A DNA stretch of 64,000 bases from Acidithiobacillus ferrianus. GTDB lineage: Bacteria; Pseudomonadota; Gammaproteobacteria; Acidithiobacillales; Acidithiobacillaceae. Of the stretch, positions 5,491-43,306 are shown piece by piece (position 1 is the first letter of the stretch; each line of letters opens with the position of its first letter). The notes under the pieces are model-generated. The model had not been told where the DNA came from, did not search any database, and saw nothing but the letters and a program-made list of their open reading frames with translations. The translations under genes were made by a program, and so were the position numbers. The stretch is from NCBI RefSeq assembly GCF_010378095.1, contig NZ_WNJL01000037.1:1-64000 (forward strand). Reading direction: 5' to 3'.

Positions 5491-6337
5491 GGACGACGGC
5501 CCCCTGTTTCACAGTTGAACATCCTTGCTGCACGAACTCGTTCGGGGTCCGGTAGCCGAGACTGCTATGCGGCCGGACCTCATTGTAATGCCGTCGCCAT
5601 TGCTCGATGACGACCTTCGCCTCGGTGCGATTCCTGAACCACTCCAGGCTCAGACATTCGTCCCGGAACTTGCCGTTGAAGCTCTCGTCGACGCCGTTCT
5701 GCCAGGGCTTGCCCGGATCGCTTAGCGCCAGGTCGATGTTCTCGGATCGCGCCCAGCGCAGGATGGCCCGCGAGACGAACTCGGGGCCATTGTCCGATCG
5801 AACATACCTCGGCGCGCCGTGGACGCTGACGAGTTGCGACAGGACCTCGACCACGCGGCCGGACCGGATCGACCCGGCGACATCGATCGCCAAGCTGATC
5901 TTGGTGAACTCGTCGATCACGGTCAGGCATTTGATCTTCTGCCCGTTGGCGCAGGCGTCGTGCACGAAGTCGTAGGCCCAGACCTGGCCCGGCCCACGCG
6001 GAATGCATGGCCGTGGCCGGCTTCCAACCACGCGCTTCCTGGGCCGCTTGCGTGGCACCTGAAGGTTGCCCTTGCTCCACAGCCGCCACGCCCGTCCATG
6101 GCCCATCTGGAAGCCCTGGCGTTCCATGAAGACATGCACGCGCCGATACCCGAAGCGCGGGTACTGCGCCGACAGCACGTTCATCGCGCCCAGCGCCGGG
6201 ACATCCTTCTCCAGCATCTTCGACGTGTAGTTCAAAGCCGACCTCGCCACCGACAGCAGCGCGCAAGCCCTTCGCTGCGACAAGCCCCGCCCAACGGCAA
6301 ACCGGACCTGCTCGCGACGCGCCTGCGCGCTCACCAT
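5483..6337 (-). CDS. IS3-family transposase OrfB (DDE integrase)
   Basis: The 284-residue product has the HTH_21-like head (QRRACALLSVARSALNY), a YPRFGYRRVHV block and an rve integrase core with VWAYDFVHDACANGQKIKCL (first Asp), RYVRSDNGPEFVS (second Asp) and a Glu in WQNGVDESFNGKFRDECL, giving the DDE triad. The end RPHSSLGYRTPNEF is typical. The gene overlaps OrfA by 7 bases next to a run of seven A on the coding strand (6338-6344 as T on the plus strand), the usual slippery site for -1 frameshifting that makes the OrfAB fusion. It appears intact. Confidence 0.88.
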   Translation of the reverse strand: MVSAQARREQVRFAVGRGLSQRRACALLSVARSALNYTSKMLEKDVPALGAMNVLSAQYPRFGYRRVHVFMERQGFQMGHGRAWRLWSKGNLQVPRKRPRKRVVGSRPRPCIPRGPGQVWAYDFVHDACANGQKIKCLTVIDEFTKISLAIDVAGSIRSGRVVEVLSQLVSVHGAPRYVRSDNGPEFVSRAILRWARSENIDLALSDPGKPWQNGVDESFNGKFRDECLSLEWFRNRTEAKVVIEQWRRHYNEVRPHSSLGYRTPNEFVQQGCSTVKQGAVVQE

Positions 6338-6624
6338 TTTTTTGCGGCGATCTCCTTCATCACGTCGATCTCCAGGTCCCGATCGGCCAGCATCTTCTTC
6401 AGCCGCGCGTTCTCCTGCTCGAGCTCGCGCAGCTTCTTCACGTCGGCCGTGTCCATCGACCCGAAATGCCGACGCCAGTTGTAGATCGTCTGCTCGCTGA
6501 TCCCGTGCCGCTTGGCCACCTCGCCCACGGGCTCGCGGTCGGCTTCTCGCAGGATCGACACCATCTTCTCTTCGCTGAACCGGCTCTTTCTCACCACTCC
6601 CTCCTTGTCGGCGGGAGCCATCAT
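6331..6624 (-). CDS. IS3-family OrfA (helix-turn-helix protein)
   Basis: The 97-residue product has the HTH_Tnp_1 domain (KSRFSEEKMVSILREADRE, HGISEQTIYNWRRHFG) followed by a leucine-zipper-like coiled coil (LRELEQENARLKKMLADRDL). It supplies sequence-specific binding to the IS ends. It ends in AAKKW over the A7 slippery run shared with OrfB. Length and layout are standard for the family. Confidence 0.85.
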   Translation of the reverse strand: MMAPADKEGVVRKSRFSEEKMVSILREADREPVGEVAKRHGISEQTIYNWRRHFGSMDTADVKKLRELEQENARLKKMLADRDLEIDVMKEIAAKKW

Positions 6625-7726: not shown

Positions 7727-8326
7727 TTAACTGTTTGTGTTGCTATTATAGATTATGATTGATAAGAAATTGATTGGTAACTTGATCAATTTTTCTGGTC
7801 CGTGCGGGACGTCTCCACGAAAAGTGAGCGAATCACCCCTTTTCAGGACATATGTGTTTTGACCATGACGGTATTCTATAACACCTTCCAAAATGTGGAT
7901 GAACTCAGTGCCCGGATGTTCAAATGTTGGAAAAACTTCCGATTTGTCATTCATGGTGATCAGGAAAGGTTCAAAAAGCTTGTTGGGTCCTTGATCATAC
8001 GCAAGCAGGTGATATGTATGTCCTCGCTTGGTACCGCGGCGGACCACTTCCATGCCCTCTCCCTGCTTCACCATCTGTGCACTCCCGCTGGGTACGTCAT
8101 AATTGCGGAAGAGGGCAGAGAGAGAGACACCGAGTGTTCTGCTCAGTCGTGATAGTGTGTCGAGACTCATCGCCGTTTGGGCGTTTTCTATTTTTGAAAG
8201 CATGCCTCGGCTGATACCTGTGAGTTCGGAGACGTCCGAGATTGTCAGATCCTGTTTGTTCCTCAGTTCGCGTATGGTGTTGCCAATGTAGCGCTCGAGG
8301 GCATCGGTGCGATCGGTATCATTCAT
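7727..8326 (-). CDS. XRE-family regulator with C-terminal cupin domain
   Basis: The 199-residue protein joins an N-terminal helix-turn-helix (IGNTIRELRNKQDLTISDVS, ELTGISRGMLSKIENAQTAM) to a cupin sensor domain with FEHPGTEFIHILEG and GDSLTFRGDVPHGPE. HTH-cupin proteins regulate amine and amino-acid catabolism genes (PuuR and PauR are of this class). I chose the ATG at 8326 (MNDTDR); the upstream ATG at 8362 would place the start within the intergenic dyad. The gene is divergent from purU and the methylamine operon, and a dyad overlapping the operon promoter lies between them, so it is the likely local regulator. The effector is unknown but could be a C1 or glutamyl intermediate. Confidence 0.85.
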   Translation of the reverse strand: MNDTDRTDALERYIGNTIRELRNKQDLTISDVSELTGISRGMLSKIENAQTAMSLDTLSRLSRTLGVSLSALFRNYDVPSGSAQMVKQGEGMEVVRRGTKRGHTYHLLAYDQGPNKLFEPFLITMNDKSEVFPTFEHPGTEFIHILEGVIEYRHGQNTYVLKRGDSLTFRGDVPHGPEKLIKLPINFLSIIIYNSNTNS

Positions 8327-8357
8327 GGTTGAAAGTGTCACAAGGATAAAAGAAAAA

Positions 8358-8414
8358 TGCAATGTTTTCCCTATAGGAAAAATACTTGCATTATGAGAAA
8401 CGTCCGGCTACAAT
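8358..8414 (+). promoter_or_regulatory. Sigma70-type promoter with overlapping dyad operator, methylamine operon
   Basis: A -35 box TTGCAT (8386-8391) and a -10 box TACAAT (8409-8414) are separated by exactly 17 bases. Overlapping the upstream side of the -35 box is a two-shell dyad: outer TGCAA (8358-8362) with TTGCA (8386-8390), and inner TTTTCC (8365-8370) with GGAAAA (8376-8381). The site lies between the divergent XRE-cupin gene and purU. It fits an operator at which the regulator would block or recruit polymerase. The promoter also argues that purU starts at 8455, not at the ATG at 8386. Confidence 0.6.
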
Positions 8415-8454: not shown

Positions 8455-9315
8455 ATGCCTGACAATGGTTGCTTCACTTTAACAGTTTCTTGTCCGGATC
8501 GAGTGGGCATTGTCGCGCGTGTCTCGGAGTTCTTGGCTCGCCATGGGGGTTGGATCGTCGAGGCGAGTCATCATGCGGACCCTGATCTAGCCCGATTTTT
8601 TATGCGACAGCAAATTGCGGTCGACTCTCTTCCTTTTGATGTCCAGACTTTCCGTGCTCGGTTCGCGAAGATTGCGTCAGAATTTCATATGGATTGGCAT
8701 ATCACTGACAGTCGGATAAAAAAGCGAGTGGTTATCATGGTTTCTAACCTGGGACATTGCCTCTACGACTTGCTGGGCAGGTGGCGGTCCGGTGAGCTGA
8801 ACATTGATATTCCCTGCGTTATCTCAAATCACGAGATCTTTCGGTCATTTGTGGAGTGGCATGGGATCCCTTTTCATTTAATCCCGGTTGATCCAGAGCG
8901 AAAGGATATGGCTTTTCAGGAGGTGACAGACCTTTTTGACGAAGCACATGGAGATGTTTTGGTGCTGGCTAGATACATGCAAGTGCTCACGCCAGAGATG
9001 TGTGATCGCTACCCTGGGCAGATCATCAATATTCATCACAGTTTTTTGCCGGGATTTATCGGTGCCAGACCCTACCACCAAGCCTATGACCGTGGGGTAA
9101 AACTTGTCGGTGCCACTTGCCATTATGTCACGTCCGAACTAGACCAGGGCCCGATCATAGAACAGGACGTTATTCGCGTAGACCACTCCGATGGGCCCAC
9201 AGAACTGGTACGCTCAGGACGTGATGTTGAAAAATCTGTTCTTGCACGCGGGCTGCGTTATCATCTGGAGGATCGAGTCATACTTAATGGATCGAAGACC
9301 GTGGTATTTCGATGA
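8455..9315 (+). CDS. purU: Formyltetrahydrofolate deformylase PurU
   Basis: PurU hydrolyses 10-formyltetrahydrofolate to formate and tetrahydrofolate. The 286-residue protein has an N-terminal ACT domain (FTLTVSCPDRVGIVARVSEF) and a C-terminal formyl-transferase-like domain with the catalytic Asn-His-Asp set in IINIHHSFLPGF and ELDQGPIIEQDV. The start at 8455 has GGAGG just upstream. It is the first gene of the methylamine operon, where it would release C1 units from folate as formate and recycle folate. With FolD at the far end of the operon this gives a complete methylene-H4F to formate branch. Length is normal. Confidence 0.9.
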   Translation: MPDNGCFTLTVSCPDRVGIVARVSEFLARHGGWIVEASHHADPDLARFFMRQQIAVDSLPFDVQTFRARFAKIASEFHMDWHITDSRIKKRVVIMVSNLGHCLYDLLGRWRSGELNIDIPCVISNHEIFRSFVEWHGIPFHLIPVDPERKDMAFQEVTDLFDEAHGDVLVLARYMQVLTPEMCDRYPGQIINIHHSFLPGFIGARPYHQAYDRGVKLVGATCHYVTSELDQGPIIEQDVIRVDHSDGPTELVRSGRDVEKSVLARGLRYHLEDRVILNGSKTVVFR

Positions 9316-9336
9316 TTTTGAGATAGGAATGATAAA

Positions 9337-10578
9337 ATGCCTTGGCGACTAATGCGATTCGCGCTTTCCCGGGAGCATCCGGAAGGTCGGATGTTTCGGA
9401 CATATGCGGATCTCAAAGATTCATATGATGTTGTGATTATTGGTGCGGGTGGTCATGGCTTGGCGGCTGCCTATTACCTCGCCCGCGATCACGGTATCAC
9501 CAATGTCTGCGTCCTGGAAAAGGGATATATCGGCGGTGGAAATACCGGACGTAATACCACGATTGTAAGATCAAATTACATTACCCCGGAGGGGGTGCGT
9601 TTTTACGATGCATCGATCAAGCTTTGGGAAGACCTCTCCGAAGATTTTGATTTGAATCTGTTTTATTCCAGACGCGGCCACTACACCCTGGCGCATACGG
9701 ATTCCGCTCTGCGTACCATGCGTTGGCGCGCCGAGGTCAATAAGCATTACGGGGTAGAGTCCGAGCTGGTCGGTCCGGAATTTATCCAGCGCGAATTGCC
9801 CATGATGGATATGTCCTGCGGAGGCCATGCGCCTGTCCTCGGCGCACTGTACCACGCACCCGGAGCCATTGCCCGGCATGATGCGGTAGCCTGGGGTTAC
9901 GGGCGGGGCGCTGACCGACGCGGGGTGGAAATACACCAAAAAACAGAAGTCACCGGAATTTCGGTAAATTCGGGCAAGGTCCATGGGGTCCAGACTTCAC
10001 GCGGATTCATCCATACGGAGAAAATATTGTGTGCCGTAGCGGGTTCCACACCGCGCTTACTGAGTATGGTAGATCTGCAAAGCCCGATCTACATCCATCC
10101 TCTGCAAGCGATGGTGAGTGAGCCGACGAAACCCTGGTTAAATCCTATTATCGTTTCTGGAAGCTTGCACGTTTATATTAGTCAATCTGCTCGGGGAGAA
10201 CTCGTGCTGGGCGCTTCACTGGACCCGTATGAGCTACATTCCACACGATCTACGCTGGATTTTACGGAAGGTCTTTCCGCCCATATTCTGGAGCTTTTCC
10301 CTTTTTTGTCTCACGTAAAAATAGTGCGCCAATGGGCTGGAATGGCCGACATGACGCCAGATTTTGCCCCTATCATGGGGAAAACTCCTGTAGAGGGGTT
10401 TTATCTCGATGCCGGCTGGGGTACCTGGGGATTCAAGGCAACGCCTGTAGCCGGGAAAACCATGGCGCACACCGTAGCCTCTGATTCTATACACCCGCTC
10501 ATCACCAAATTTTCCCTTGAACGTTTCCGCTCTTATGCGCTGACGGGAGAGAAGAGCGCGGCATCAGTAGGGCATTAG
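9337..10578 (+). CDS. mgdA: N-methylglutamate dehydrogenase subunit A (SoxB-like flavoprotein)
   Basis: The 413-residue FAD protein is homologous to the beta subunit of heterotetrameric sarcosine oxidase. It has an N-terminal dinucleotide-binding motif (DVVIIGAGGHGLAAAYYLA), a GNTGRNTTIVRSNY block and GAIARHDAVAWGYGRGA, whose His is in the position of the covalent FMN attachment site of sarcosine oxidase. In this operon, next to gmaS and mgsABC, the complex is best read as N-methylglutamate dehydrogenase, which oxidises N-methylglutamate to glutamate with transfer of the methyl carbon to tetrahydrofolate. True sarcosine oxidase is the main alternative. The start at 9337 matches the family N-terminus, with AGGA about eight bases upstream. 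Confidence 0.82.
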   Translation: MPWRLMRFALSREHPEGRMFRTYADLKDSYDVVIIGAGGHGLAAAYYLARDHGITNVCVLEKGYIGGGNTGRNTTIVRSNYITPEGVRFYDASIKLWEDLSEDFDLNLFYSRRGHYTLAHTDSALRTMRWRAEVNKHYGVESELVGPEFIQRELPMMDMSCGGHAPVLGALYHAPGAIARHDAVAWGYGRGADRRGVEIHQKTEVTGISVNSGKVHGVQTSRGFIHTEKILCAVAGSTPRLLSMVDLQSPIYIHPLQAMVSEPTKPWLNPIIVSGSLHVYISQSARGELVLGASLDPYELHSTRSTLDFTEGLSAHILELFPFLSHVKIVRQWAGMADMTPDFAPIMGKTPVEGFYLDAGWGTWGFKATPVAGKTMAHTVASDSIHPLITKFSLERFRSYALTGEKSAASVGH

Positions 10579-10597
10579 GCAACATGGAGATCGCATT

Positions 10598-10861
10598 ATG
10601 AAGATGATCGCCTGCCCCATTCAGGGATTACGCCCTGTTTCCGAATTTTTCTATTGGGGGGAAGTCCTGGATAGTCCTGATCCTGATACATGCACCGATC
10701 AGGAGTGGGCGGACTATGTGTTCAATCGAAACGGTGTCGCCGGGATAAAAAAAGAATGGTGGTGCCATATACCGAGTAATACCTGGTTTGTTGCTGAGCG
10801 TAATACGGTGACTGATCAAATGGTTAGAACCTACTTCTATGGGGAGGACGGCAGATGTTGA
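10598..10861 (+). CDS. mgdB: N-methylglutamate dehydrogenase subunit B (SoxD-like)
   Basis: The 87-residue protein aligns with the small delta subunit of sarcosine oxidase: CPIQGLRPVSEFFYWGE at the N-terminus, then WADYVFNRNGVAGIKKEWW, HIPSNTWF and RNTVTDQM. In sarcosine oxidase this subunit binds zinc through C6, C9, a His and a Cys four residues later. Here C6 and the His (H57) remain, but position 9 is Gln and the last ligand position is Asn (N61); an extra Cys precedes the His. The zinc site is therefore altered or lost. The gene overlaps mgdC by 7 bases, so translation is coupled. Confidence 0.82.
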   Translation: MKMIACPIQGLRPVSEFFYWGEVLDSPDPDTCTDQEWADYVFNRNGVAGIKKEWWCHIPSNTWFVAERNTVTDQMVRTYFYGEDGRC

Positions 10862-13773
10862 AACCATATCGTCTTCCTCCCATGGAAGGAGAGTGGATCG
10901 ATCGCGATAAGTCGGTCATCTTCAAATTTGAAGGCAAACCGTTCTGTGGTTTTGAGGGAGATACCATGACCAGTGCGCTCTGGGCATCTGGTCAAAGGTT
11001 TCTGGGGCGCAGTTTCAAATATCACCGGCCACGGGGCATATTGTCGCTGGCGAATCATGACGTCAATGTGATGATGCAATGGGGTCAACACTTGAATGTC
11101 CGCGCGGATGTCACAGCGCTTGCATCCCAAATGCAGGTAAACGCGGTGAATACGACGGGTGGGCTTGAAAAAGATCAAAGCAGGATATTCAATCATCTTT
11201 CGTCATTATTGCCGGTCGGATTCTATTATAAAGCGTTCCACAGCAAGAAGCTTTTCCCGTATTGGGAACGGTTGTTCCGCAACATAACGGGCCTGGGGAA
11301 GGTCGACCTTGAAACACCCCGAATATTCACCCCCAAAGATTACGATTTTTGTTCGGTAGCGGTCATCGGCGCGGGTCCATCCGGGCTTGCGGCCGCACTG
11401 GCAGCTGCAGAGCAAGGTGCCGACACATTGCTCATCGATGAGAACCCGCAATGTGGTGGGAGCGGGCATTATCAAAGAGGTGGGGATAATGCTTTGTGGC
11501 ATGCCACAAAGCAGCTTCTAGAAAAGGTCGAAGCACACCCGCTGATTCGCGTTCTTACCAGTACGGTGGCGGCCGGTTATTACGCAGATCACTGGTTGGC
11601 CCTGGTATCTGAACGCAAAATGACCAAGTTGCGGGCGAAGTCTGTGGTGTTTGCAACCGGTGCTTTTGAGCAGCCCGCAGTGTTCGGGAATAATGATCTT
11701 CCGGGAGTCATGCTGGGATCTGCCGCTCAACGTCTGATGTATCGCTTCGCGGTACGACCTGCGCAGAGGGCTGTCGTATTGCTCGCCAACGATGATGGCT
11801 ATCGGCTGGCACTCGATCTTAAGGCCCACGGTGTTGAAGTCGCCGCAATGGTTGACATGCGCCCAGAGGGGGCGGCACAAAATCCTTTTTCCAAGTCGCT
11901 TACCGATCAGGGGATACCGCTATACACCGGTTGCTGTGTCTACGAGGCACTACCTGCCAAGGAGGATCATGTTGTGGGCATGGCCCGTGTAGCATCATTC
12001 TCGGATGGTAAGGCCGATTTGGCCACCGTCCGTGAAATTCAGTGTGACGGAATTATTATGAGTGTGGGTTGGGCCCCCGCCGCCAATCTTCTCTATCAAG
12101 CCAATACGCAGATGCGTTATACGGATGCACTGGAGCAATTTGTTCCAGGGGAGTTGGCTCCCGGCATTTTCGCTTGTGGCCGGGTAAATGGTCTCTATAA
12201 CCCGGATGCCCGATTACGGGATGGCCAGCGCGCCGGCAGTGCCGCAGCAGCTTACCTGGGATTTGGAAAGGCCCTAGAGGTGGATATTGCTCCCGGGGCG
12301 ACGTGCCCAAGCTTTCCCTGGCCTATGGTTTCCCATCCACAAGGCAAAAATTTTGTGGATTTTGACGAAGATCTGCAGCTCAAGGATTTCGAGAACGCCG
12401 TGCAGGAAGGTTTTGACAACATTGAGCTCTTGAAGCGTTTCACAACGAATGGAATGGGACCTAGCCAGGGCAAGCATTCCAATATGAATGCCCTGCGTAT
12501 TTTGGGGCGGTTGACGGGTCAGCGCCCAGACGCTGTAGGTACGACCACCGCCCGTCCATTTTTTCATCCCATACCGTTATCCCATCTCGCGGGACGCGGA
12601 TTTCATCCGGAACGCCGGACCCCTGTGCATCCCCGCCACGTCGCCCTTAACGCATTTTTTATGCGCGCGGGCGAGTGGCTGCGTCCTGAGTATTACGCAC
12701 GGGCCGGTTGCAATCGCAGTGCATGTATTCAAGAGGAAGTGGCAGCAGTCCGAGCCTCTGTAGGCCTGATAGATGTTGGCACATTAGGGAAGCTCGAAGT
12801 ATTCGGGCCGCAGGCAGTAGAGCTGTTGGAGCGCGTCTACGTCTCAAAATACGCCAATTTGAAGGTGGGTATGACACGCTATGCGGTCATGTGTGATGAG
12901 GCGGGAGTGGTCATTGATGATGGTGTGATTGCGCGGTTGGCTGCGGATCACTTTTATTTTACCACGACGACCTCGGGAGCAGCCCAGATTTATCGGGAGT
13001 TGAGCCGTCTCAACGCGATGTGGCGACTGAACTGTGGCATCGTTAACCATACCGGCGCATTCTCTGCCATGAATCTTGCTGGCCCAAAATCGCGAGAGGT
13101 TCTGCAACAACTTACAGCCATAGATCTTTCTGGCGGGTCTTTTCCGTATCTGGCAGTTCGGGAAGGGAGGGTGGCCGGCATCCCCGCGCGTCTGATGCGG
13201 GTGGGTTTTGTGGGGGAATGGGGTTACGAGATTCATATTCCCGCTGAATATGGAATAACCCTTTGGGATGCGATTCTGGATGCGGGACGCCCTTTCAGCA
13301 TTCGACCTTTCGGTGTGGAAGCGCAACGCGTCCTGCGCTTGGAAAAGGGACATGTGATTATCGGACAGGATACGGATGGTCTCACGAATCCCTATGAGGC
13401 AGGTCTCGGATGGGCGATAAAAATGGATAAGCCCTTCTTCATCGGTAAGCGCAGCCTGCATATTCTCTCGAAACAGCCCCTGCGGCAGCAATTGGTTGGG
13501 TTTCAAATGCCGCAGGAATACACGGGGCCTCCCCCGCAGGAAAGCCACCTGATCATCCATGCCGGAGAAATTGCCGGACGAGTAACCAGCATCGCCTATA
13601 GTCAGGCAATCGACGCCCACATTGGTTTGGCGTTGGTTGCTCCGGATTTGGCGTTGTCCGCGACCTCTTTTGAAATCCGTCTGACCAACGGTGGTTTCGT
13701 CACTGCACAGATAACATCGTTACCATTCTACGATCCCGATCAAATGCGCCAGAAGGAGTCCACATGTGCGTAG
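10855..13773 (+). CDS. mgdC: N-methylglutamate dehydrogenase subunit C (SoxA-like)
   Basis: The 972-residue protein has the full alpha-subunit layout of heterotetrameric sarcosine oxidase. The N-terminal ferredoxin-like region includes FCGFEGDTMTSALWASGQ. A nucleotide-binding flavoprotein region at about residues 165-200 has VAVIGAGPSGLAAALAAAEQ. A C-terminal aminomethyltransferase (GcvT-like) folate-binding half starts near residue 590, with SVGLIDVGTLGKLEVFGP and RRVLR-like FGVEAQRVLRLEKGH. The GcvT half is where the C1 unit is passed to tetrahydrofolate to make methylene-H4F. It is intact and in an overlapping gene string with mgdB and mgdD. Assignment to N-methylglutamate rather than sarcosine rests on operon context. 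Confidence 0.83.
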   Translation: MLKPYRLPPMEGEWIDRDKSVIFKFEGKPFCGFEGDTMTSALWASGQRFLGRSFKYHRPRGILSLANHDVNVMMQWGQHLNVRADVTALASQMQVNAVNTTGGLEKDQSRIFNHLSSLLPVGFYYKAFHSKKLFPYWERLFRNITGLGKVDLETPRIFTPKDYDFCSVAVIGAGPSGLAAALAAAEQGADTLLIDENPQCGGSGHYQRGGDNALWHATKQLLEKVEAHPLIRVLTSTVAAGYYADHWLALVSERKMTKLRAKSVVFATGAFEQPAVFGNNDLPGVMLGSAAQRLMYRFAVRPAQRAVVLLANDDGYRLALDLKAHGVEVAAMVDMRPEGAAQNPFSKSLTDQGIPLYTGCCVYEALPAKEDHVVGMARVASFSDGKADLATVREIQCDGIIMSVGWAPAANLLYQANTQMRYTDALEQFVPGELAPGIFACGRVNGLYNPDARLRDGQRAGSAAAAYLGFGKALEVDIAPGATCPSFPWPMVSHPQGKNFVDFDEDLQLKDFENAVQEGFDNIELLKRFTTNGMGPSQGKHSNMNALRILGRLTGQRPDAVGTTTARPFFHPIPLSHLAGRGFHPERRTPVHPRHVALNAFFMRAGEWLRPEYYARAGCNRSACIQEEVAAVRASVGLIDVGTLGKLEVFGPQAVELLERVYVSKYANLKVGMTRYAVMCDEAGVVIDDGVIARLAADHFYFTTTTSGAAQIYRELSRLNAMWRLNCGIVNHTGAFSAMNLAGPKSREVLQQLTAIDLSGGSFPYLAVREGRVAGIPARLMRVGFVGEWGYEIHIPAEYGITLWDAILDAGRPFSIRPFGVEAQRVLRLEKGHVIIGQDTDGLTNPYEAGLGWAIKMDKPFFIGKRSLHILSKQPLRQQLVGFQMPQEYTGPPPQESHLIIHAGEIAGRVTSIAYSQAIDAHIGLALVAPDLALSATSFEIRLTNGGFVTAQITSLPFYDPDQMRQKESTCA

Positions 13774-14378
13774 ATGCTGACCGATGGAGCCCCATTTATA
13801 CCACCGAGACCACCCCGGCGGGGAGTGTCTTGTCCACGATTGACCAGGATGCGGCGATCTGGATCGCCGATCTCTCCCTGCAACCGCGCTTTGGTTGCAA
13901 AGGGCGTGGAGTGGCCGAGTGGCTGGGGGCACAGGATTTCATTGTGCCCGCCAGCGCCAACAGTTGGGTGATGACAGGAGAATCTACGATTTTACGTTTG
14001 GGTGATTCGGAGTTTCTGATTGAAAGTACAGCAGACGTTATTGACAAGATCAAAAGTTTCCCGCGAGAAGCGGCGGTTTATCCTGTTTTGCGCCAGGATT
14101 GTGCGATCGAGTTAGGGGGGACTCAAGTGGAAAACCTACTCAGGCAGGTTTGTAGCATGCACTTCGGGGCTCTGAACCTGTCTGCCCAACCTGTTGTTCT
14201 CACATCAATGATCGGTGTGAGTGTAATTATATTACCCAAACAGAATCAAGGCCGGCCTCATTTTCGGGTGTGGGCAGATAATACCTATGGATTTTACTTG
14301 TGGAACACCTTGCGGGGGATCGGTAACGAACTGGGTGGCTGTCAGGTTTGCCTTGTCAGAGATTCGGGATATCAGTAA
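13764..14378 (+). CDS. mgdD: N-methylglutamate dehydrogenase subunit D (SoxG-like)
   Basis: The 204-residue protein corresponds to the gamma subunit of heterotetrameric sarcosine oxidase. These are weakly conserved GcvT-like folds; visible features are [20 protein letters not shown] in the middle and [19 protein letters not shown] near the C-terminus, typical of SoxG. It overlaps the end of mgdC by 10 bases and ends just before gmaS. The assignment leans on position as the fourth gene after B-, D- and A-type subunits and on these motifs. Confidence 0.78.
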
Positions 14379-14422
14379 ACCGCCAGAAAGAACTTTATCT
14401 ATATCACGGAGGCTTACAGCAC

Positions 14423-15751
14423 ATGAATATTGAAGCTGCACGAAAATTTCTCTCGGAAAATCAGATCAAATATGTGCTTGCGCAGTTCGTTGATATTCAC
14501 GGCACCGCAAAAACCAAATCGGTACCCGTGAAACATTTTGAGACAATCCTCGGCAATGGCGCGGGATTTGCGGGATTTGCGGTGTGGGGTTTAGGCATCG
14601 CGCCGCATGGGCCAGACTTTATGGCGGTTGGAGACCTCTCGACGCTTTCGCTGGTACCCTGGCAGCCGGGTTACGCACGCATCGTCTGTGATGGGCATGT
14701 GCATGGAAAGCCGTGGCCCAATGACACCCGAGTGGCTCTAAAAAAACAGATTGCACGATTAAGTGAGCGAGGGCTTACCTTCTATACCGGGCTAGAGCCG
14801 GAGTTTTCTTTGCTGCGCCGTGGCACAGATGGTGTGATCTCACCTTGTGATCTCAGCGATGCGCTGCCAAAACCCTGTTATGACTACAAAGGGTTATCTC
14901 GCTCCAGAGCATTCCTTGAGAAACTGGTGGACAGCATGATCGCCAGCGGTATTGACGTGTATCAAATCGATCACGAAGATGCGAATGGACAGTTCGAAGT
15001 CAATTATACCTTTACCGACTGTCTTACTTCTTGCGACCAGTTTACTTTTTTCAAAATGGCCGCTGCGGAAATTGCGCATGAAATGGGTCTGATCTGCTCA
15101 TTCATGCCCAAGCCTTTTGCGAATCGGCCCGGAAATGGTATGCACATGCATATGTCCATCGGGGATGGAGAGAGGAATCTCTTCGCCGAGGCCAGCGATC
15201 CCCGGGGTCTTCAGCTCTCCTCCATGGCGTATCATTTTTTAGGGGGCGTACTGGCGCACGCGTCAGCATTGACAGCGATCTGCGCGCCCACGGTGAATTC
15301 TTACAAGCGTTTGGTAGTGGGGCGCTCACTCACCGGTGCGACATGGGCACCCGCCTACATCAGTTATGGAGATAACAACCGATCCTCGATGGTGCGTATT
15401 CCCGGTGGGCGCTTGGAACTCCGTTTGCCCGATGGTGCTTGCAACGCCTATCTCGCCACGGCCGCTGTAATCGCCGCTGGTCTCGACGGTATCGACCGTT
15501 CCCTGGATCCGGGGGAGCCCAAGAACGCTAATTTATATGAGTGGTCATCCGAAGATCTCAAAAGAGAGGGGGTCAACATTTTGCCGCAAAATTTGCATGA
15601 GGCTCTGTTGGCATTCGAGGCAGATGAAATTCTGTTGTCTGCCCTTGGTCCTGTGTCGGGAGAGTTTTTAACCCTAAAGCATATGGAATGGGTGGAGTAT
15701 ATGCGCCATGTTTCCGACTGGGAGCTTTCCACTTATCTGGAATTCTTCTGA
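14423..15751 (+). CDS. gmaS: Gamma-glutamylmethylamide synthetase (glutamine synthetase family)
   Basis: GmaS joins glutamate and methylamine with ATP to give gamma-glutamylmethylamide, the entry step of the N-methylglutamate pathway. The 442-residue protein has the glutamine synthetase fold: [37 protein letters not shown] (metal ligands) and [21 protein letters not shown]. It belongs to the GlnT/type III-like branch that includes characterised GmaS enzymes. The ATG at 14423 is preferred, with GGAGG about ten bases upstream; the longer frame would overlap mgdD. It sits between mgd and mgs genes, as in known methylamine operons. A plain glutamine synthetase is less likely given this context. 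Confidence 0.84.
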
Positions 15752-15801
15752 GTTTATGCTTGTAAACCATTTATCGGATACTTTGTAAGGGGAACACTAT
15801 C

Positions 15802-16710
15802 ATGTGCGGCATTGTCGGATTACTCATAAAGAAAGAGCCACTACGTGTCCATCTAGGTGAGTGGATGGTGCCTATGCTGATCGGTATGACCGAGCGTGGC
15901 CCGGATTCTGCCGGTCTTGCGATCTTCTCCAAGTCACTTCCTGTAGGCCAACACAAAATAAGCCTGTACTCCGGGTTGACGACAGACGGGGCTGATTTTA
16001 ACTGGACCGGCATGCGACATCATGCCGACGAAACTCTGGGTATTTCATCCACCATTCAACACAGTGACAATCATGCCATACTGACGTTTGTAGGGAATCC
16101 TGAGCTGGTTAAGCGTTGGATTCATGAACATTATCCAGCCGTTCATATCTTATCCACCGGCAGTAGCATTGATTTGTTTAAGGATGTGGGGAGTCCAGCA
16201 GCAGTGGCCAGTCGTTACCGTCTAGATCTGCTACAGGGTAGCCATTTGGTTGGTCATACTCGCATGGCTACAGAGTCTGCCGTTACACCGGATCGTGCGC
16301 ATCCTTTCACCGCAGGAGAGGACTTTTGTCTGGTGCACAATGGGTCACTGTCCAATCCATATGGTATTCGTCGGATGCTGGAATCCCATGGCATTCACTT
16401 CGATACTGATAACGATACGGAAGCGGCATGCCGATTTTTGGAATGGCGACTGCGTGAAGGAGACACTCTGGAAGAAGCCATACAAAAAAGTTTCACCGAG
16501 TTGGATGGATTCTTTACTTTTCTCATGGGCACTGCAAATCAGCTTGCCTTGATCCGCGATCCCTTTGCTTGTAAACCTGCTGTTGTGGCAGAGACGGGCG
16601 ATTATGTGGCGATCGCTTCAGAGTTTCGATCATTGGCCCACCTGCCGGATATACAGAATGCGCATATCTTTGAACCAGCCCCAGAGGAGATGTACGTATG
16701 GAGAATATAA
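15802..16710 (+). CDS. mgsA: N-methylglutamate synthase subunit A (class II amidotransferase domain)
   Basis: The 302-residue protein is a stand-alone Ntn amidotransferase. It begins MCGIVGLL, exposing the nucleophilic Cys2 after Met removal, and has HTRMATESAVTPDRAHPF and CLVHNGSLSNPYGIRR, which match the glutaminase pocket of GlxB and glutamate-synthase relatives. In N-methylglutamate synthase this subunit releases methylamine from gamma-glutamylmethylamide, which is then delivered to 2-oxoglutarate. An AAGG site precedes the start. It overlaps mgsB by 13 bases. Confidence 0.84.
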   Translation: MCGIVGLLIKKEPLRVHLGEWMVPMLIGMTERGPDSAGLAIFSKSLPVGQHKISLYSGLTTDGADFNWTGMRHHADETLGISSTIQHSDNHAILTFVGNPELVKRWIHEHYPAVHILSTGSSIDLFKDVGSPAAVASRYRLDLLQGSHLVGHTRMATESAVTPDRAHPFTAGEDFCLVHNGSLSNPYGIRRMLESHGIHFDTDNDTEAACRFLEWRLREGDTLEEAIQKSFTELDGFFTFLMGTANQLALIRDPFACKPAVVAETGDYVAIASEFRSLAHLPDIQNAHIFEPAPEEMYVWRI

Positions 16711-17396
16711 AATTTGATCTGCAGACCACTTCGGTACGGGAGATCAATAAATTTCTTCATCACGAAATTGCGGAAGGTACGGTGCCAAGAATCATCATCG
16801 AGCATCCCGATGGCGCTCATAATATTGCCGCTGGCCTAAATGTCAATTGTGAAGTGGAGATTCGTGGGCATGTGGGATACTACGCTGCAGGAATGAATCA
16901 GCATGCTTCCGTCTTGATCGCTGGCAACGCGGGTACGGGTGTTGCCGAAAATATGATGAATGGTCGGGTACATGTCCGTGGTTTTGCCTCCAACTCCGCA
17001 GGTGCCTCAGCTCATGGTGGGCTTCTCATTGTCGATGGTGACGCGGGTCTGCGTTGCGGTATTTCATTGAAAGGCGGAGATATTGTAGTGGGCGGATCCG
17101 TGGGCAGCTTTTCCGCATTTATGGCCCAGGCCGGTCGCATGGTGATTTGCGGGAATGCAGGGGATGCGCTGGGCGATTCCCTCTATGAAGCCGTAGTGTA
17201 CGTGAAAGGGCATATCAAATCTTTGGGTGCCGATGCGCGCATAGAGGATATGACAGCTGATGATCATCAAGCGCTCGAATCTTTATTGAATCAGGCAGGG
17301 GTGAGTTATAGCATGCACCGGCCCAGCGATTTTAAGCGCATCGCTTCAGCCCGAAACCTGTACCACTGGAACGCCGATGCTAACCAGGAATACTGA
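16698..17396 (+). CDS. mgsB: N-methylglutamate synthase subunit B (GXGXG domain)
   Basis: The 232-residue protein is a GXGXG beta-helix like the C-terminal domain of glutamate synthase. Repeated Gly-rich turns are visible: RGHVGYYAAGMN, IAGNAGTGVAENMMNGRVHV, SAHGGLLIVDGDAGLRCGI and GGDIVVGGSVGSFSAFMAQA. Stand-alone forms (GlxC-like) act as structural partners of the amidotransferase and FMN subunits. The start overlaps the end of mgsA, and mgsC begins 11 bases after the stop, so the three are translated as a unit. Confidence 0.84.
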   Translation: MENIKFDLQTTSVREINKFLHHEIAEGTVPRIIIEHPDGAHNIAAGLNVNCEVEIRGHVGYYAAGMNQHASVLIAGNAGTGVAENMMNGRVHVRGFASNSAGASAHGGLLIVDGDAGLRCGISLKGGDIVVGGSVGSFSAFMAQAGRMVICGNAGDALGDSLYEAVVYVKGHIKSLGADARIEDMTADDHQALESLLNQAGVSYSMHRPSDFKRIASARNLYHWNADANQEY

Positions 17397-17406
17397 GGGA
17401 TACATC

Positions 17407-18774
17407 ATGAACGAAAGTCATAACAGCGATAAAAGAATCTCCAAAGAGGAGTCCTGGGGATATGATCGAAGCACGCTGGATTATATCCAGCGTGCAGCGG
17501 CGCATGGTCTCTATGAGATCCGCGGACTGGGTGCTAAACGTAAGGTACCCCACTTTGATGACCTGGTTTTTCTTGGAGCATCCATGTCCCGTTACCCCTT
17601 GGAGGGATATCGAGAAAAGTGTGCAACAAAAACCATTCTAGGTACTCGGTTTGCCTCCAGGCCTGTGGAATTGGAAATACCAATCACCGTGGCCGGAATG
17701 AGCTTTGGTGCACTCTCCGCGAATGTGAAGGAAGCATTGGGCCGGGCGGCAACCGAAGTGGGCACTTCGACCACCACGGGAGATGGTGGCATGACATCGG
17801 AAGAGCGAAACTCATCAAAAGTCTTGGTCTATCAATGCCTGCCTTCGCGCTATGGTTTCAACCCGGATGATTTACGTAGGGCAGATGCTATTGAGGTCGT
17901 TATCGGACAGGGTGCCAAACCGGGGGGCGGCGGTATGCTCCTAGGGCAAAAGGTGAACCCGCGTGTCGCACAAATGAGAACATTGCCGGCGGGTGTCGAC
18001 CAGCGTTCCGCCTCGCGGCATCCTGACTGGACCGGACCCGATGACCTGATCATAAAAATTCACGAATTACGAGAAATCACGGATTGGGAGAAGCCGATTT
18101 ATGTCAAAGTCGGGGCCACACGCACGTTTCATGACGTAAAGCTTGCCATACACGCGGGTGCGGATGTGATTGTGGTGGATGGCATGCAGGGGGGTACCGC
18201 CGCAACTCAAACCTGCTTTATCGAGCACGTAGGTATACCAACCCTTGCTGCTCTACGGCAAGCAGTAGATGCCCTCGAAGACATGAATATGAAAGGAACC
18301 GTGCAATTGATCATCTCTGGGGGAATCAGAACGGGGGCGGATGTCGCGAAGGCCTTGGCGATGGGTGCAGACGCAGTATCAATTGGTCAAGGCGTGCTTA
18401 TGGCATTGGGCTGCAATAGTGAGAGTTGGATAGATTCGGGCGGGCAGCATATTTCTGCGGCGCAGGATTATTTGAAGATCGGAACAGAAGCTGGTTACTG
18501 CCATCATTGTCATACCGGCCAGTGTCCCGTGGGCATCGCCACTCAGGATGAGCTTCTCGAACAGAGACTCCGCCCGAAGATAGGGGCGAAACGTCTAAAG
18601 AACTACCTAAATACCCTGAACATGGAACTTACGACTATTGCCAGGGCATGCGGAAAGAACAATGTCCATCACCTCGAAAGGGAGGATTTGGTGGCGCTAA
18701 CCATAGAAGCGGCGGCAATGGCCAATATTCCTTTGGCGGGAACCGAATGGATACCTGGAAACGGAATGAAATAA
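17407..18774 (+). CDS. mgsC: N-methylglutamate synthase subunit C (FMN-binding glutamate synthase domain)
   Basis: The 455-residue protein is the FMN/4Fe catalytic subunit (GltB central-domain family). Motifs: PITVAGMSFGALSANVKEAL, GQGAKPGGGGMLLGQKV, DVIVVDGMQGGTAATQ, SGGIRTGADVAKALAMGADAV split over two blocks, and the Cys cluster CHHCHTGQCPVGIAT for the Fe-S centre. It performs reductive coupling of methylamine to 2-oxoglutarate giving N-methylglutamate. I chose ATG 17407 after GAGGGATACATC, not the ATG at 17377 inside mgsB. A decayed second copy of the 3' half of this gene is at 34293-34983. Confidence 0.86.
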   Translation: MNESHNSDKRISKEESWGYDRSTLDYIQRAAAHGLYEIRGLGAKRKVPHFDDLVFLGASMSRYPLEGYREKCATKTILGTRFASRPVELEIPITVAGMSFGALSANVKEALGRAATEVGTSTTTGDGGMTSEERNSSKVLVYQCLPSRYGFNPDDLRRADAIEVVIGQGAKPGGGGMLLGQKVNPRVAQMRTLPAGVDQRSASRHPDWTGPDDLIIKIHELREITDWEKPIYVKVGATRTFHDVKLAIHAGADVIVVDGMQGGTAATQTCFIEHVGIPTLAALRQAVDALEDMNMKGTVQLIISGGIRTGADVAKALAMGADAVSIGQGVLMALGCNSESWIDSGGQHISAAQDYLKIGTEAGYCHHCHTGQCPVGIATQDELLEQRLRPKIGAKRLKNYLNTLNMELTTIARACGKNNVHHLEREDLVALTIEAAAMANIPLAGTEWIPGNGMK

Positions 18775-18830
18775 GAACATGGTGAACGATTACTATCCCG
18801 TTTCTTGGAAATTAGCAAAGGAAGCATGAA

Positions 18831-19694
18831 ATGTCTGCCAGAATGCTTGACGGGCGCGCTCTTTCGAAAGAAATTCGCGCAGGTCTATTTGAAAGATCAC
18901 TGCGCATAAGGAATAAAGGTGTTGTACCTGGTTTGGCCGTTATCTTAGTCGGAAATGACCCCGCGTCAAAAGTATATGTCAGAAACAAATCGAAAGCCTG
19001 CGATGAGTGCGGAGTCATGTCAAAAATTTTTTCTTTCCCAGGTACCGTATCGGAGTATGAGTTGATGGAGTTGATAGCGGAGCTGAATGTTTCCAATGAA
19101 ATAGATGGTATCCTGGTTCAGCTCCCGTTGCCTGGGCATGTAAACGTGCGAAATATCATAGGTTGTATTTCGGTAAATAAAGATGTGGATGGATTCCACT
19201 TGTATAATGTTGGGGGTTTGGTGGTGGGAGGTACGATATTCCCGCCATGTACTCCTTATGGCGTCCAACTATTGCTGGAAGCCGCAAAGATTGAAGTCGC
19301 ATCAAAAAATGTTGTTATTGTTGGCGCTAGTAACATAGTAGGAAAACCTATGGCATTGATGTTGCTTCAGAAAGGCGCCACTGTGAGCATATGCCACATA
19401 AAAACACGTGATTTGTCACTCTATACGAGGATGGCGGATATTCTCATTGTCGCTGCAGGAAAGCCCGGATTAATAACTGCTGATATGGTGAAGAATGATG
19501 TTGTCGTCATTGACGTGGGTATTAATAAGATGTCAGATGGATCAATAACAGGTGATGTGGATTTTGATAGTGTGAAACATATAGCTTCATGGATCACGCC
19601 AGTGCCTGGAGGAGTAGGGCCAATGACCGTGACAATGCTCATTGAAAATACGATAAGATCGGCCGAATTAAGAATGTCCATTAATCAATTGTGA
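18831..19694 (+). CDS. folD: FolD methylene-H4F dehydrogenase/cyclohydrolase
   Basis: FolD interconverts 5,10-methylene-H4F and 10-formyl-H4F. The 287-residue protein has KVYVRNKSKACDECGV (catalytic Lys), GILVQLPLPGH, NKDVDGFHLYNVGG, FPPCTPYGVQLLLEA and the nucleotide-binding VVIVGASNIVGKPMALMLL. Placed right after mgsC, it would oxidise the methylene-H4F produced by the N-methylglutamate dehydrogenase, and PurU at the other end would release formate. Its base composition is more AT-rich than the mgd/mgs genes. It may be an extra, pathway-dedicated copy; this cannot be tested within the window. Confidence 0.88.
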   Translation: MSARMLDGRALSKEIRAGLFERSLRIRNKGVVPGLAVILVGNDPASKVYVRNKSKACDECGVMSKIFSFPGTVSEYELMELIAELNVSNEIDGILVQLPLPGHVNVRNIIGCISVNKDVDGFHLYNVGGLVVGGTIFPPCTPYGVQLLLEAAKIEVASKNVVIVGASNIVGKPMALMLLQKGATVSICHIKTRDLSLYTRMADILIVAAGKPGLITADMVKNDVVVIDVGINKMSDGSITGDVDFDSVKHIASWITPVPGGVGPMTVTMLIENTIRSAELRMSINQL

Positions 19695-19709
19695 TTAAGA
19701 ATATTGAAA

Positions 19710-21449
19710 ATGGAAAATTCCAGCGCTAAAAAGTCTAGGCATGGCTATTGTGAAGACTTTTTCGTGCCGAGTGTTGAGAGCCCAGAGAGTTACTCCGTCT
19801 TGATTTCGAGCTTTACGGGTGATAAGGAGGTTAATGAAGACTACATCTGTTTCCATGTTGGAGAGTTGAAACAACGCAACACACATGGAAGCGTACTTAT
19901 AGTAGCTGATGGGCTTAGTGGTGGGAAAGGGGGGAGGATCGCCGCGGAGTTGTTCTCCAGGTGTTTTCTGGATGGTTATTTTTGTAGTAAAGAGAGCCTT
20001 CCTCCAGAAAAGAACGTGGGTCATCTATTTGATTCTATTAATAAGTGGCTGGTATCCGTGGCGAAAATGGATCAAACCATTGAAGGCATGTCAGCCTCCT
20101 TTTGTGTGGTCATTGTGCGCGCTTGGGAATGTTATATATTTCACGCCGGTGATGTCCGGTGTTATCTGTTGAATGGTGGTCAACTTCAACAGATAACTTC
20201 AGACCACGTGGTTTCGGCTCTATATGGTCAGTACATAACGAGAGCTATTGGCCTTGAGTCAGAATTTATTGGAGAAATGAGCAAGATTGCCATTTCAGAT
20301 AACGACAAGATTATTGTATGCTCCGATGGTCTGCATAGATTTGTTACACGCAACCAGATAAGGGAGTTTCTAGTAGGTACTCAATTCCTGGGATCGTCTA
20401 CAATTGACGAGTTGGTTGATTGTGCACGACTTCATGGTTCTAAGGATGATATTTCTATTGGGATTCTGCAATGTCTGAATATACCAAAAAAAAGTTATAT
20501 GTTTTACGAGAGTCAAATTGATCACCTGCCAATAGGAAAATGCCCACATCCTGGTGATTTGGTAGACGGGTTCACTATTCTTAACCTGATTCACGATGGA
20601 TATTATAATAAAATATTTCTCGTAGAACCTGCCGGTTCTCCTGGCAAAAATTATGTCATGAAATTTCCAAACCATAGAACGTTACGGAATAAAAGTATTT
20701 TAAATACAATTGCACGCGAAAAATGGGTTGCTTCTGTTGTGTCGAGCCCGTGGCTTGCTGAGGGGATAGAGAACTTTATCGCTTCACCGAGCCAGATTTA
20801 TTTGTTGGCGCCATACTATGACGGAATAACGCTAGGAAAAGCCGTTTGTGAAAACAGGCTTTCATTTGCTGAAAGTCTTTCGATTGCCAGGAAGTTGTCA
20901 TATGGGTTATATGAGTTACATCGCCATGGGATTATACACAGAGATATTAAGCCGGACAACATTATGATTGTAAATAATAATGTTGTTAGAATAATGGACT
21001 TCGGATTCGCTCGAATCCCCGGACAAATTGGCAGCGAGTTTGATGTTGATCTAGGAACTCCAGCTTATTCTGCACCTGAATTGGTGGCTGGCAACCTCGC
21101 GGATTCGAGATCTGATGTATATTCATTTGGGGTTACATTATATTATATGTTCTCTGGTGGTAAAAGTCCGTTTGGTATTGATGGATATAAGAGCCTGAAG
21201 CGATGTAATAATACCCCATATTGGCTGGATGAAATGGTGAAAAAAATGCTCTAACGAAACCCTGATGAGAGGTTTTCTGATACTTTGGAAGTTGCTTATG
21301 TGATCGATAAATATGTTGATTTACATCGTTATTCTATGGATGCCGAAACAAAATTTCCGCTTATTATGAAAATTAGCCAAGTAAATAGGTGGCGAATTGT
21401 TTCTTTTGTATTTTTTATGGCAATAATTTTTCTGTTATTTGAGAGGTGA
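19710..21449 (+). pseudogene. PP2C phosphatase-Ser/Thr kinase fusion with in-frame stop (copy 1)
   Basis: The N-terminal half is a PP2C phosphatase (NEDYICF, VADGLSGGKGGRIAAE, HAGDVRCYLL, CSDGLHRFV, HGSKDDISIGI). The C-terminal half is a Hanks-type kinase (GIIHRDIKPDNIMI, IMDFGFA, GTPAYSAPELV, DSRSDVYSFGVTLYYMFSGG). A TAA at 21252-21254 interrupts the frame just before the subdomain XI Arg. Beyond it, homology to the intact copy at 36910 continues in frame (NPDERFSDTLEV) to a tail helix and TGA at 21449. The stop removes the last kinase segment and the membrane anchor. It starts 15 bases after folD; ATG 19710 is preferred over the TTG at 19704. A shortened soluble product is possible. Confidence 0.8.
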
Positions 21450-21992: not shown

Positions 21993-22055
21993 ACCGGACG
22001 GCATCAAGGTGCCAAGGTGGAAATTTATCCACGAGAAGGACAAGGAGGACTCATC

Positions 22056-23071
22056 ATGCAGGTTACAACATATGGATTAGATTTGGCAAAATCAGTCATG
22101 CAGTTGCACTGGGTAAACATGGAGACCGGAGAGATTCATCGCAAACAGTTGAAGCGCCGAGCGCTTCTGGAGTTTTTCGCCAACCGCCAACCGGGTATCG
22201 TGGCGATGGAAGCGTGTGGTAGTGCCCATTATTGGGCTCGGGAATTGCGTAAACTGGGGCATGAGGTTCGCTTGATCGCCGCCCAGTTTGTGCGTCCCTT
22301 CGTGAAGACCAACAAGAACGATGCGGCGGATGCGGCAGCGATCTGGGAAGCCGTACAGCGGCCTGATATGCGCTTCGTGGCCGTCAAGAGCGAGGAACAG
22401 CAATCCATCCTGTCACTACACCGTATTCGGGAGCAACTGATCAAAATGCGTACGATGCAGGTGAACCAGATCCGGGGGCTACTCTATGAATTTGGTGCCG
22501 ATCTTCCGCAAGGTCGCCAGAGGGGACTGAAAGAAGTTCCTGATGCTTTGGCTGATCTGGAAAAATCCATATCGCCCATGCTGCTGGACACCGTTCACCA
22601 GCAATTAAAGCGCCTTGAAGGGATGGACAAGGATATTGCGGATATCGAAAAGCGTTTGATGCTGTGGAAGAAAGACCAGGTGGCGGTGACTCGATTGATG
22701 GCTATTCCCGGCGTGGGGCTTCTTACGGCCACCGCCATTATCGCCACCGTGGGAGAGATGAAGTCCTTTTGTTCAGGGCGCGAGTTTGCGGCCTTTCTGG
22801 GATTGGTTCCCCGCCAGAGTGGGACGGGTGGCAAGGTCCGGTTACTGGGCATCAGCAAGCGCGGAGATACCTATCTCCGAACGCTGCTCACCCACGGGGA
22901 GCGCGGGCAGTCGTGAATCGCCAGATCAAGAAACGGAATCCTTGGATCGACAAACTGCTCAGCCGACGGCTTTACAGTGTGGCTGTGGTGGCATTGGCCA
23001 ACAAGATGGCCAGAATGATTTGGGCACTACTGGTAAAAATACAGAATATGACGCCCATCACGCTGCGGTAA
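22056..23071 (+). pseudogene. IS110/IS1111-family transposase, one frameshift
   Basis: The N-terminal DEDD RuvC-like domain is clear: TTYGLDLAKSVMQLHWVN (first Asp), VAMEACGSAHYWARELRKLG (Glu) and TNKNDAADAAAIWEA (Asp pair). The C-terminal transposase_20 domain has MAIPGVGLLTATAIIATVG and GREFAAFLGLVPRQSGTGGK. After YLRTLLTHG an extra base near 22903 shifts the frame to an early stop; in the next frame ARAVVNRQIKKRNPWIDKLL continues normally to 23071. One base change would restore it. An ATG preceded by GGAGGA at 22056 is the likely start. Confidence 0.85.
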
Positions 23072-41915: not shown

Positions 41916-41925
41916 GGTGTGCGCC

Positions 41926-43236: not shown

Positions 43237-43261
43237 AAATAACTCCTGCGTGCAGATAAAT

Positions 43262-43277
43262 GTTTAGTTTAATTAAC
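43262..43277. promoter_or_regulatory. Palindrome-like site upstream of omega-transaminase gene
   Basis: GTTTAGTTTAATTAAC matches the perfect palindrome at 48696-48711 at 13 of 16 positions. It lies 26 bases upstream of the transaminase start within the polyamine locus. A PuuR-type operator is the suggested role; binding is not shown. Confidence 0.4.
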
Positions 43278-43306
43278 GGACATAAAGTTATCAATGTAAA
43301 ATCGGG

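Follow-up and report, generated by a model that had tools for sequence, protein, structure and literature searches.

A predicted N-methylglutamate-pathway operon for methylamine nitrogen in Acidithiobacillus ferrianus

The first 64,000 nucleotides of contig NZ_WNJL01000037.1 of Acidithiobacillus ferrianus (G000:C31:1-64000, hereafter the window; the assembly, G000, holds 3.17 Mb in 90 contigs) carry ten genes in the order purU-mgdABCD-gmaS-mgsABC-folD, all on the plus strand at 8455-19694 and each a single open frame. This region is very probably an N-methylglutamate-pathway operon that would let an Acidithiobacillus use methylamine as nitrogen source. It is a further member of a known operon type, common to other bacteria. 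The first-pass annotation of this DNA had named the same gene order and proposed that every enzyme of the route is present together with FolD and PurU; both claims are borne out, by hidden Markov models (HMMs) for nine genes and by profile and fold for MgdD. Its further claim, that methylamine serves as a nitrogen source and the one-carbon (C1) unit leaves as formate, is supported as a prediction from gene content, order and conservation.

In the proposed pathway, GmaS would join methylamine to glutamate with ATP, and MgsABC would convert the product, with 2-oxoglutarate, to N-methylglutamate and glutamate. MgdABCD would then oxidise the methyl group onto tetrahydrofolate (THF), yielding methylene-THF and leaving glutamate, which carries the nitrogen. 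FolD would turn methylene-THF into 10-formyl-THF, from which PurU would release formate; the folate would thereby be regained and the carbon lost. Uptake would probably proceed via an operon-linked APC permease, possibly with Amt proteins. Substrate, reaction direction, induction, transport and formate release are predictions made from the sequence.

Pfam and NCBIfam models fit nine of the ten core genes, mgdD being the exception (Table 1). The GATase, GXGXG and Glu_synthase domains expected of MgsABC are spread over three adjacent genes, and the CHxxxCPVG cysteine region of MgsC aligns with glutamate synthase. That the genes overlap at most joints, as was first annotated, is too strong: with gmaS starting at 14423 and mgsC at 17407, three of the nine joints overlap (mgdB/C, mgdC/D and mgsA/B) and the rest are gaps of about 10-56 nucleotides. 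The starts of the longest open reading frames (ORFs; gmaS 14348, mgsC 17377) would bring two more overlaps. Linked features lie beyond the ten genes, namely a regulator, a palindrome and a permease remnant upstream and a PP2C/kinase gene downstream.

Table 1. Core genes of the operon, followed by linked and neighbouring features of the window (aa, amino acids; nt, nucleotides; model cut-offs in brackets)
Feature	Position	Strand	Basis
purU, formyltetrahydrofolate deformylase, 286 aa	8455..9315	+	NF004684 421.5 bits (223); TIGR00655 353.2 (285.95)
mgdA, N-methylglutamate dehydrogenase subunit, SoxB-like, 413 aa	9337..10578	+	TIGR01373 480.2 bits (529.45)
mgdB, SoxD-like, 87 aa	10598..10861	+	PF04267 93.0 bits; TIGR01374 66.1 (116.5)
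mgdC, SoxA-like, folate-binding GCV_T domain, 972 aa	10855..13773	+	TIGR01372 816.7 bits (1164); GCV_T 254.3
mgdD, SoxG-like, 204 aa	13764..14378	+	profile, fold and position
gmaS, gamma-glutamylmethylamide synthetase, 442 aa	14423..15751	+	TIGR03105 632.2 bits (469.6)
mgsA, glutamine-amidotransferase-type subunit, 302 aa, starts Met-Cys	15802..16710	+	GATase_6 61.4 bits; GATase_7
mgsB, GXGXG subunit, 232 aa	16698..17396	+	PF01493 33.8 bits (32.5)
mgsC, glutamate-synthase-like subunit, 455 aa, longer start 17377 possible	17407..18774	+	PF01645 315.6 bits
folD, 287 aa, one of two genome copies	18831..19694	+	PF02882 222.5 bits
XRE-cupin (PuuR-like) regulator, divergent	7727..8362	-	HTH_3 54.9, Cupin_2 42.8 bits; PuuR model 45.4 (211)
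Operator-like palindrome TTTCC-N5-GGAAA	8366..8380	.	89 nt upstream of purU
APC-family permease 3' remnant, without first ~150-160 residues	6662..7633	+	84% to residues 163-485 of L106 permease (485 aa)
IS3-type transposase ORFs 5483-6337 and 6331-6624	5483..6624	-	rve, rve_3 in first; second from ORF list only
PP2C-phosphatase/Ser-Thr-kinase hybrid, in-frame stop	19704..21254	+	PP2C_2, Pkinase; match G000:C31:19749-21425 holds one TAA
APC permease paralogue, intact, 477 aa	35377..36810	+	AA_permease 90.9 bits; 57% to L106 operon permease
PP2C/kinase hybrid paralogue, intact, 573 aa	36907..38628	+	Pkinase, PP2C_2
DDE transposase	3009..3884	-	
IS110-type transposase	22017..22916	+	
Copper primary-amine oxidase	30179..32143	-	NF008559 951.3 bits
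Puu-type and polyamine-transport cluster	39279..55983	-	

Among PDB chains, GmaS matches 9qur, named glutamate--methylamine ligase, with 735.7 bits and RhGmaS (7cql) with 356.5 bits, against at most 259.5 bits for chains named glutamine synthetase. On the type I GlnA model TIGR00653 it reaches 335 bits, below the cut-off of 429.15. Sixteen RhGmaS positions given in the accessible part of PMC7948447 were mapped on the 7cql alignment (native number = chain number - 20), and GmaS is identical at all 16, including all seven of the methylamine pocket. The same text describes two places that separate RhGmaS from glutamine synthetase; at both of them the residue is of RhGmaS type, with Ala for the ammonia-site Asp50' and Trp for the Glu of the Glu-flap. 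GmaS is thus of the methylamine type by TIGR03105, by 9qur and by its 16 positions, and both the PDB scores and the replaced residues speak against a grouping with GlnA or GlnT, which the first-pass annotation had named as part of what would refute its proposal. Four further glutamine-synthetase-like matches occur in the genome; the match on G000:C23 is probably GlnA. At the start of contig G000:C29 (L113, 873-4747), a second TIGR03105 gene (524.3 bits, over the cut-off; 40% identical to GmaS) adjoins a creatininase-family gene and a permease that scores 641.9 bits against the trimethylamine N-oxide permease model (cut-off 690).

MgdABCD has the same four-subunit make-up as the heterotetrameric sarcosine oxidase of soxBDAG operons. 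MgdA, MgdB and MgdC all score below the curated sarcosine oxidase cut-offs (Table 1). In the alignment of MgdA with 2gag_B, the beta chain of sarcosine oxidase, a His of MgdA stands at residue 173, which we take to be the site of covalent flavin mononucleotide attachment. For MgdD, scans of the HMM library gave no sensible family match. When a profile of the MgdD position (7 sequences) is compared with the PDB, the best hit is sarcosine oxidase gamma (E 0.0028). In Foldseek the AlphaFold model, of middling confidence (predicted local distance difference test, pLDDT, 69.4), covers the full length of the gamma chains 1vrq_C and 2gag_C (1.4e-6 at rank 11 and 4.9e-6 at rank 17); sarcosine oxidase alpha and GcvT-type chains of the same fold rank above them (best 1.2e-8). 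The resemblance of MgdD to sarcosine oxidase gamma is thus seen in the profile and, with less specificity, in the fold. A four-subunit folate-linked dehydrogenase is therefore recognizable in MgdABCD, its MgdD part by profile, fold and position only.

The tree of 51 MgdC-like rows (FastTree, midpoint-rooted, six duplicate loci omitted) falls into two parts: 46 rows of gmaS/mgs-type loci, the window among them, and five rows of soxBDAG type, which come from alphaproteobacterial plasmids. The larger group counts A. caldus twice (L109 and L127) and includes one cyanobacterium with mgs and without a gmaS found. This is Kovacikia minuta, whose plasmid pA (L157) bears homologues of mgdA, mgdC, mgsA, mgsC and the XRE-cupin gene at 61-81% identity; gmaS was not matched (E 1e-20) within the 21 kb retrieved. 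Both Kovacikia and the five soxBDAG regions (about 20.8 kb each) were picked by hand among the matches listed (40 of 892 records). Neither gmaS nor mgs was found in any of the five soxBDAG regions, in which they differ from the window, and three of the five carry purU and folD. Because these three lack gmaS, we suggest that PurU and FolD go with folate-linked demethylation in general and that gmaS-mgs would be the part that fixes the substrate. A grouping of MgdABCD with sarcosine oxidases linked to glyA or serine genes, the other part of the refuting outcome named in the first-pass annotation, was not observed: MgdC stands apart, and gmaS and mgs adjoin it where glyA would have been expected of such a system.

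As for the folate branch, the PurU of the operon is the sole strong PurU match in the genome, and a second FolD copy lies at G000:C29:262764-263240. Formate-THF ligase has no match in the genome at E 0.001, which suits a folate route running outward to formate, with PurU as the visible step from formyl-THF; PurU as a dissimilatory exit is argued for in the available text of PMC5023230. The first-pass description of a dedicated C1 exit needs one qualification: neither PurU nor FolD is specific to the pathway, as three soxBDAG regions illustrate. The model for the formate dehydrogenase alpha subunit (Fdh-alpha) gives 12 matches in six proteins of the genome, none over its cut-off. The strongest (532.5 bits, cut-off 666.25), for which Fdh-alpha is still the top-scoring model, lies beside nirB and narK and is probably an assimilatory nitrate reductase. 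Of the remaining five proteins, one belongs to the FdhF/YdeP family (871.5 bits, cut-off 582.15), two are NuoG-like and two are nearest to PhsA with low score; the single FdhD of the genome is on a contig different from those of all six. In L115 (G000:C49, 3752-14349) the probable assimilatory nitrate reductase, nirB, a uroporphyrinogen methyltransferase gene and narK stand together.

Distribution was followed in 18 close genomes, comprising 17 of the genus Acidithiobacillus and A. sulfuriphilus (G017) of a sister genus, and in 29 genomes of Acidithiobacillaceae, some only 61-85% complete. The nearest relatives of GmaS are those of A. ferrivorans DSM 22755 (G013, locus L106; 97%) and A. ferruginosus CF3 (G009; 96%), followed by that of A. 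sulfuriphilus (85%). Together with G000, these three genomes are the only ones of the 18 to carry a GmaS orthologue, and the same four alone have PurU and a full-length MgdC. The other 14 have partial PurU matches of at most 35%, taken as PurN and Fmt. The chance of hitting the same four is 1/3060 per extra gene, which overstates the strength of the association, as three of the four carriers are closely related. Strong FolD copies number two in G000, G009 and G017 and one in G013, whose operon contig stops within mgsC. Since among the 18 PurU is confined to the GmaS carriers, PurU and FolD appear tied to the operon; further out in the class, G032 and G037 have PurU-like genes (39-48%) without a GmaS orthologue.

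Within the family, seven of the 29 genomes, from four genera, carry GmaS orthologues (at least 76%). In A. caldus ATCC 51756 (G021) the set resides on megaplasmid mpAca1.1, accompanied there by genes for an APC permease and for a "bifunctional protein-serine/threonine kinase/phosphatase"; the public annotation calls GmaS "glnT" and MgdC a generic iron-sulfur protein. All seven family sequences form one clade in the GmaS tree (support 98/97; L015 left out), and a recent one-off transfer into this strain is thereby rejected. In the MgdC tree Acidithiobacillaceae are not monophyletic and form a grade next to the midpoint root, which is compatible with exchange with betaproteobacteria in either direction. 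Of 80 named GmaS loci, 48 have enough flank (a minimum of 6.5 kb upstream of gmaS and of 4.5 kb downstream; 32 were dropped), and the order purU-mgdABCD-gmaS-mgsABC, for which a search of related genomes had been proposed, is present in 28 of these 48 (39/80 overall). Of these 28 loci, 16 also have folD no further than 2 kb downstream of mgsC. Hosts of the full order include metagenome-assembled genomes (MAGs) titled Thiobacillus, Gallionella and Hydrogenophilales, as well as Zoogloea and Paraburkholderia. The capacity, expected at first to be surprising in an autotrophic acidophile, is thus less so, given such hosts and the four family genera.

Control of the operon can be imagined from its upstream region. 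The site between the XRE-cupin gene and purU reads TTTCCCTATAGGAAA, and the XRE-cupin protein, which we presume to bind this palindrome, probably controls the operon through it from the shared intergenic region. A divergent XRE-cupin homologue lies directly upstream of purU in 19 of the 28 full-order loci. The palindrome was counted in the 36 of 41 purU-mgdA operons (window included) that have 160 nucleotides upstream, as the best match 60-160 nucleotides before purU. It is kept at 8/10 or better in 23 of the 36 and at 9/10 or better in 17, where mononucleotide shuffles give 1.23 and 0.09; the rows are not independent, and four Paraburkholderia sites share an identical core. A matrix of 15 distinct sites out of the 23 rows, built without the window, L005, L033, L035 and repeats, ranks the window site first in the 64 kb with 18.4 bits; the next site (13.1) is at about the maximum of three shuffles (12.1-13.0). 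The bare pattern with one mismatch is not above chance in the window (4 vs 2.42). A cruder search for TTCC-GGAA succeeds in 6/60 regions and a looser one in 24/84 at 9 or better, with some upstream stretches mis-cut.

The permease upstream of the operon is a remnant, and residues 1-162 of the L106 permease have no match next to the insertion sequence; in A. ferrivorans and A. ferruginosus the operon-side permease is whole. Terminal repeats were looked for around the IS3-type element and none were found. Transposases around the operon are of three kinds (DDE, IS3-type and IS110-type). After folD, the hybrid frame meets its first stop at codon 517 and the next at 582, and the A. ferruginosus frame is open to 582. 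With the operon-side permease truncated and the adjacent hybrid stopped, other genes must provide for uptake. Further on, the window contains an intact permease-hybrid pair, at which no second strong matrix site was found. In G026 a permease (77%) and then a hybrid (50%), homologues of this intact pair, directly follow mgsC, and a similar pair follows mgsC in L021, L063 and L075.

Less to be expected in this system was its linkage to a permease and a kinase/phosphatase hybrid. Among the 18 close genomes, only the four GmaS carriers have the hybrid (E 1e-20) and the permease (at least 46% identity); of the other 14, 10 have permeases of lower identity (28-38%), and weaker hybrid relatives occur in G029, G031 and G032, from other families. 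All seven family carriers have a permease near the operon (in G000 the remnant and the intact paralogue), and six have the hybrid on the operon contig, at only 32% identity in MAG YF4.bin20 (G025); in G013 it is on another contig. Outside Acidithiobacillaceae these companions are rare (permease 4/76, hybrid 3/76 loci, many loci being short on one side). Quite tentatively, one may picture a family operon with its own uptake control, in which the hybrid phosphorylates and dephosphorylates the permease or GmaS and so switches amine uptake, inside a region for nitrogen from several amines that is conserved among acidophilic chemolithoautotrophs. The substrate of the permease and any phosphorylation are putative. 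A literature search on bacterial PP2C/kinase hybrids returned nothing of use among the matches listed.

Around the intact pair, other amine genes are found. The Puu-type cluster comprises PotD/A-like and PuuC-like genes, two glutamine-synthetase-like genes, aminotransferases, an alanine-dehydrogenase-like gene, a C26 amidohydrolase and a permease, and the primary-amine oxidase lies near SDR and isochorismatase-family genes. The region is partly conserved in two other genera: most Puu-type cluster genes, as well as the aminotransferase/APH and SDR/isochorismatase pairs, lie no more than about 50 kb from gmaS in both G017 and G026. No match to the primary-amine oxidase was found near gmaS in these two genomes.

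Several points weigh against a working methylamine operon of the kind we propose. The genome has nitrate-assimilation genes and four Amt genes, which makes the need for methylamine less clear, and no candidate for formate disposal exceeds the Fdh-alpha cut-off. The truncated permease and the stopped kinase gene stand right beside the operon. At the palindrome the two closest relatives reach only 7/10, so the site is common, not universal. The MgdC tree contains no alphaproteobacterial N-methylglutamate dehydrogenase of proven function. Finally, in 18 of the 48 loci with enough flank (L023, L029, L058, L065 and 14 more), gmaS-mgsABC occur without an mgdA or mgdC orthologue, and another route from N-methylglutamate may be used there. 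An XRE-cupin homologue is present at 17 of these 18 loci.

Four other explanations have to be set against methylamine nitrogen use. The methyl group might be valued for energy rather than the amine for nitrogen, going through formate to CO2 and feeding respiration and the Calvin cycle; according to the accessible texts, formate use and oxidation are reported for A. ferrooxidans (PMC2621215) and SAR11 gains energy from methyl-group oxidation (PMC3160333). Without a formate dehydrogenase over the cut-off in the genome or a C1-assimilation gene among the scanned neighbouring ORFs, we regard this as unlikely. GmaS could also glutamylate several small amines, or a different set of them, as one arm of general organic-amine scavenging. 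The Puu-type cluster and the amine oxidase in the window, the recurrence of much of that cluster near the operon in G017 and G026, and the ability of GMAS to couple ethylamine to glutamate, stated in the available part of PMC7677707, all favour it; yet MgsABC-MgdABCD-FolD-PurU suit an N-methyl group and the methylamine pocket is fully kept, which leaves such breadth decidedly unlikely. If the operon were decaying in this strain, its enzymes would no longer matter, and the damaged permease and kinase genes and the transposases could be taken as signs of this. We consider it very unlikely: all ten core frames are open, mgdABC, gmaS and mgsABC are 92-97% identical to those of A. ferrivorans and A. 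ferruginosus (less conserved are purU, 81-82%, mgdD, 77-86%, and folD, 89%), and an intact permease-hybrid pair is available 14 kb further on. Hardly credible is a sarcosine oxidase for the breakdown of sarcosine or glycine betaine, accompanied by an ordinary glutamine synthetase. The library does name MgdA-C as sarcosine oxidase, and PurU and FolD accompany soxBDAG too, but the sub-cut-off scores of the three subunits, the split in the MgdC tree, and gmaS and mgsABC inside an operon whose order recurs elsewhere lead us to reject sarcosine oxidase as the identity of MgdABCD.

A methylamine route in four family genera would add an organic nitrogen source for bacteria of bioleaching and acid drainage. 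Formate is toxic to acidophiles at low pH, and the route would also be an internal source of it in these organisms. The operon is of a known kind but apparently little noticed in this group. The nitrogen routes of A. ferrooxidans named in the accessible part of its genome account are N2 fixation and ammonia assimilation (PMC2621215). No paper on the pathway in Acidithiobacillus was found by title or start of abstract among the matches listed, in a search that subscription literature was mostly beyond; the labels given to the A. caldus genes may explain the lack of titles and abstracts on a methylamine route.

The same eight subunits constitute the N-methylglutamate pathway of Methyloversatilis, Methylocella, Methylobacterium and Paracoccus, as far as the available texts describe it (PMC4543880, PMC5023228, PMC3160333), and PMC5023228 deals, in the part at hand, with its distribution among methylotrophs. 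Compared with these, the window has purU at one end of the gene set and folD at the other, both in the orientation of the set, and it comes from an Acidithiobacillus rather than a methylotroph. In P. aminophilus, by the accessible portion of PMC4543880, the genes form two putative operons, mgsABC-gmaS and mgdABCD, and folD-purU make up three separate two-gene loci. In Rhodobacteraceae, folD, purU and regulators of the XRE family repeatedly accompany the pathway genes, and methylamine is a nitrogen source, not a carbon source, for Donghicola strain KarMa (both from the available text of PMC7574528). The window differs from Rhodobacteraceae in that no enzyme for trimethylamine or dimethylamine is found among the scanned neighbouring ORFs, the rest of the genome not having been searched for them. 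Betaproteobacterial operons, such as those of Zoogloea, Thiobacillus, Gallionella and Paraburkholderia, agree with the window in gene order and in many cases also in the divergent regulator and the palindrome, and their GmaS proteins are 73-78% identical to that of the window.

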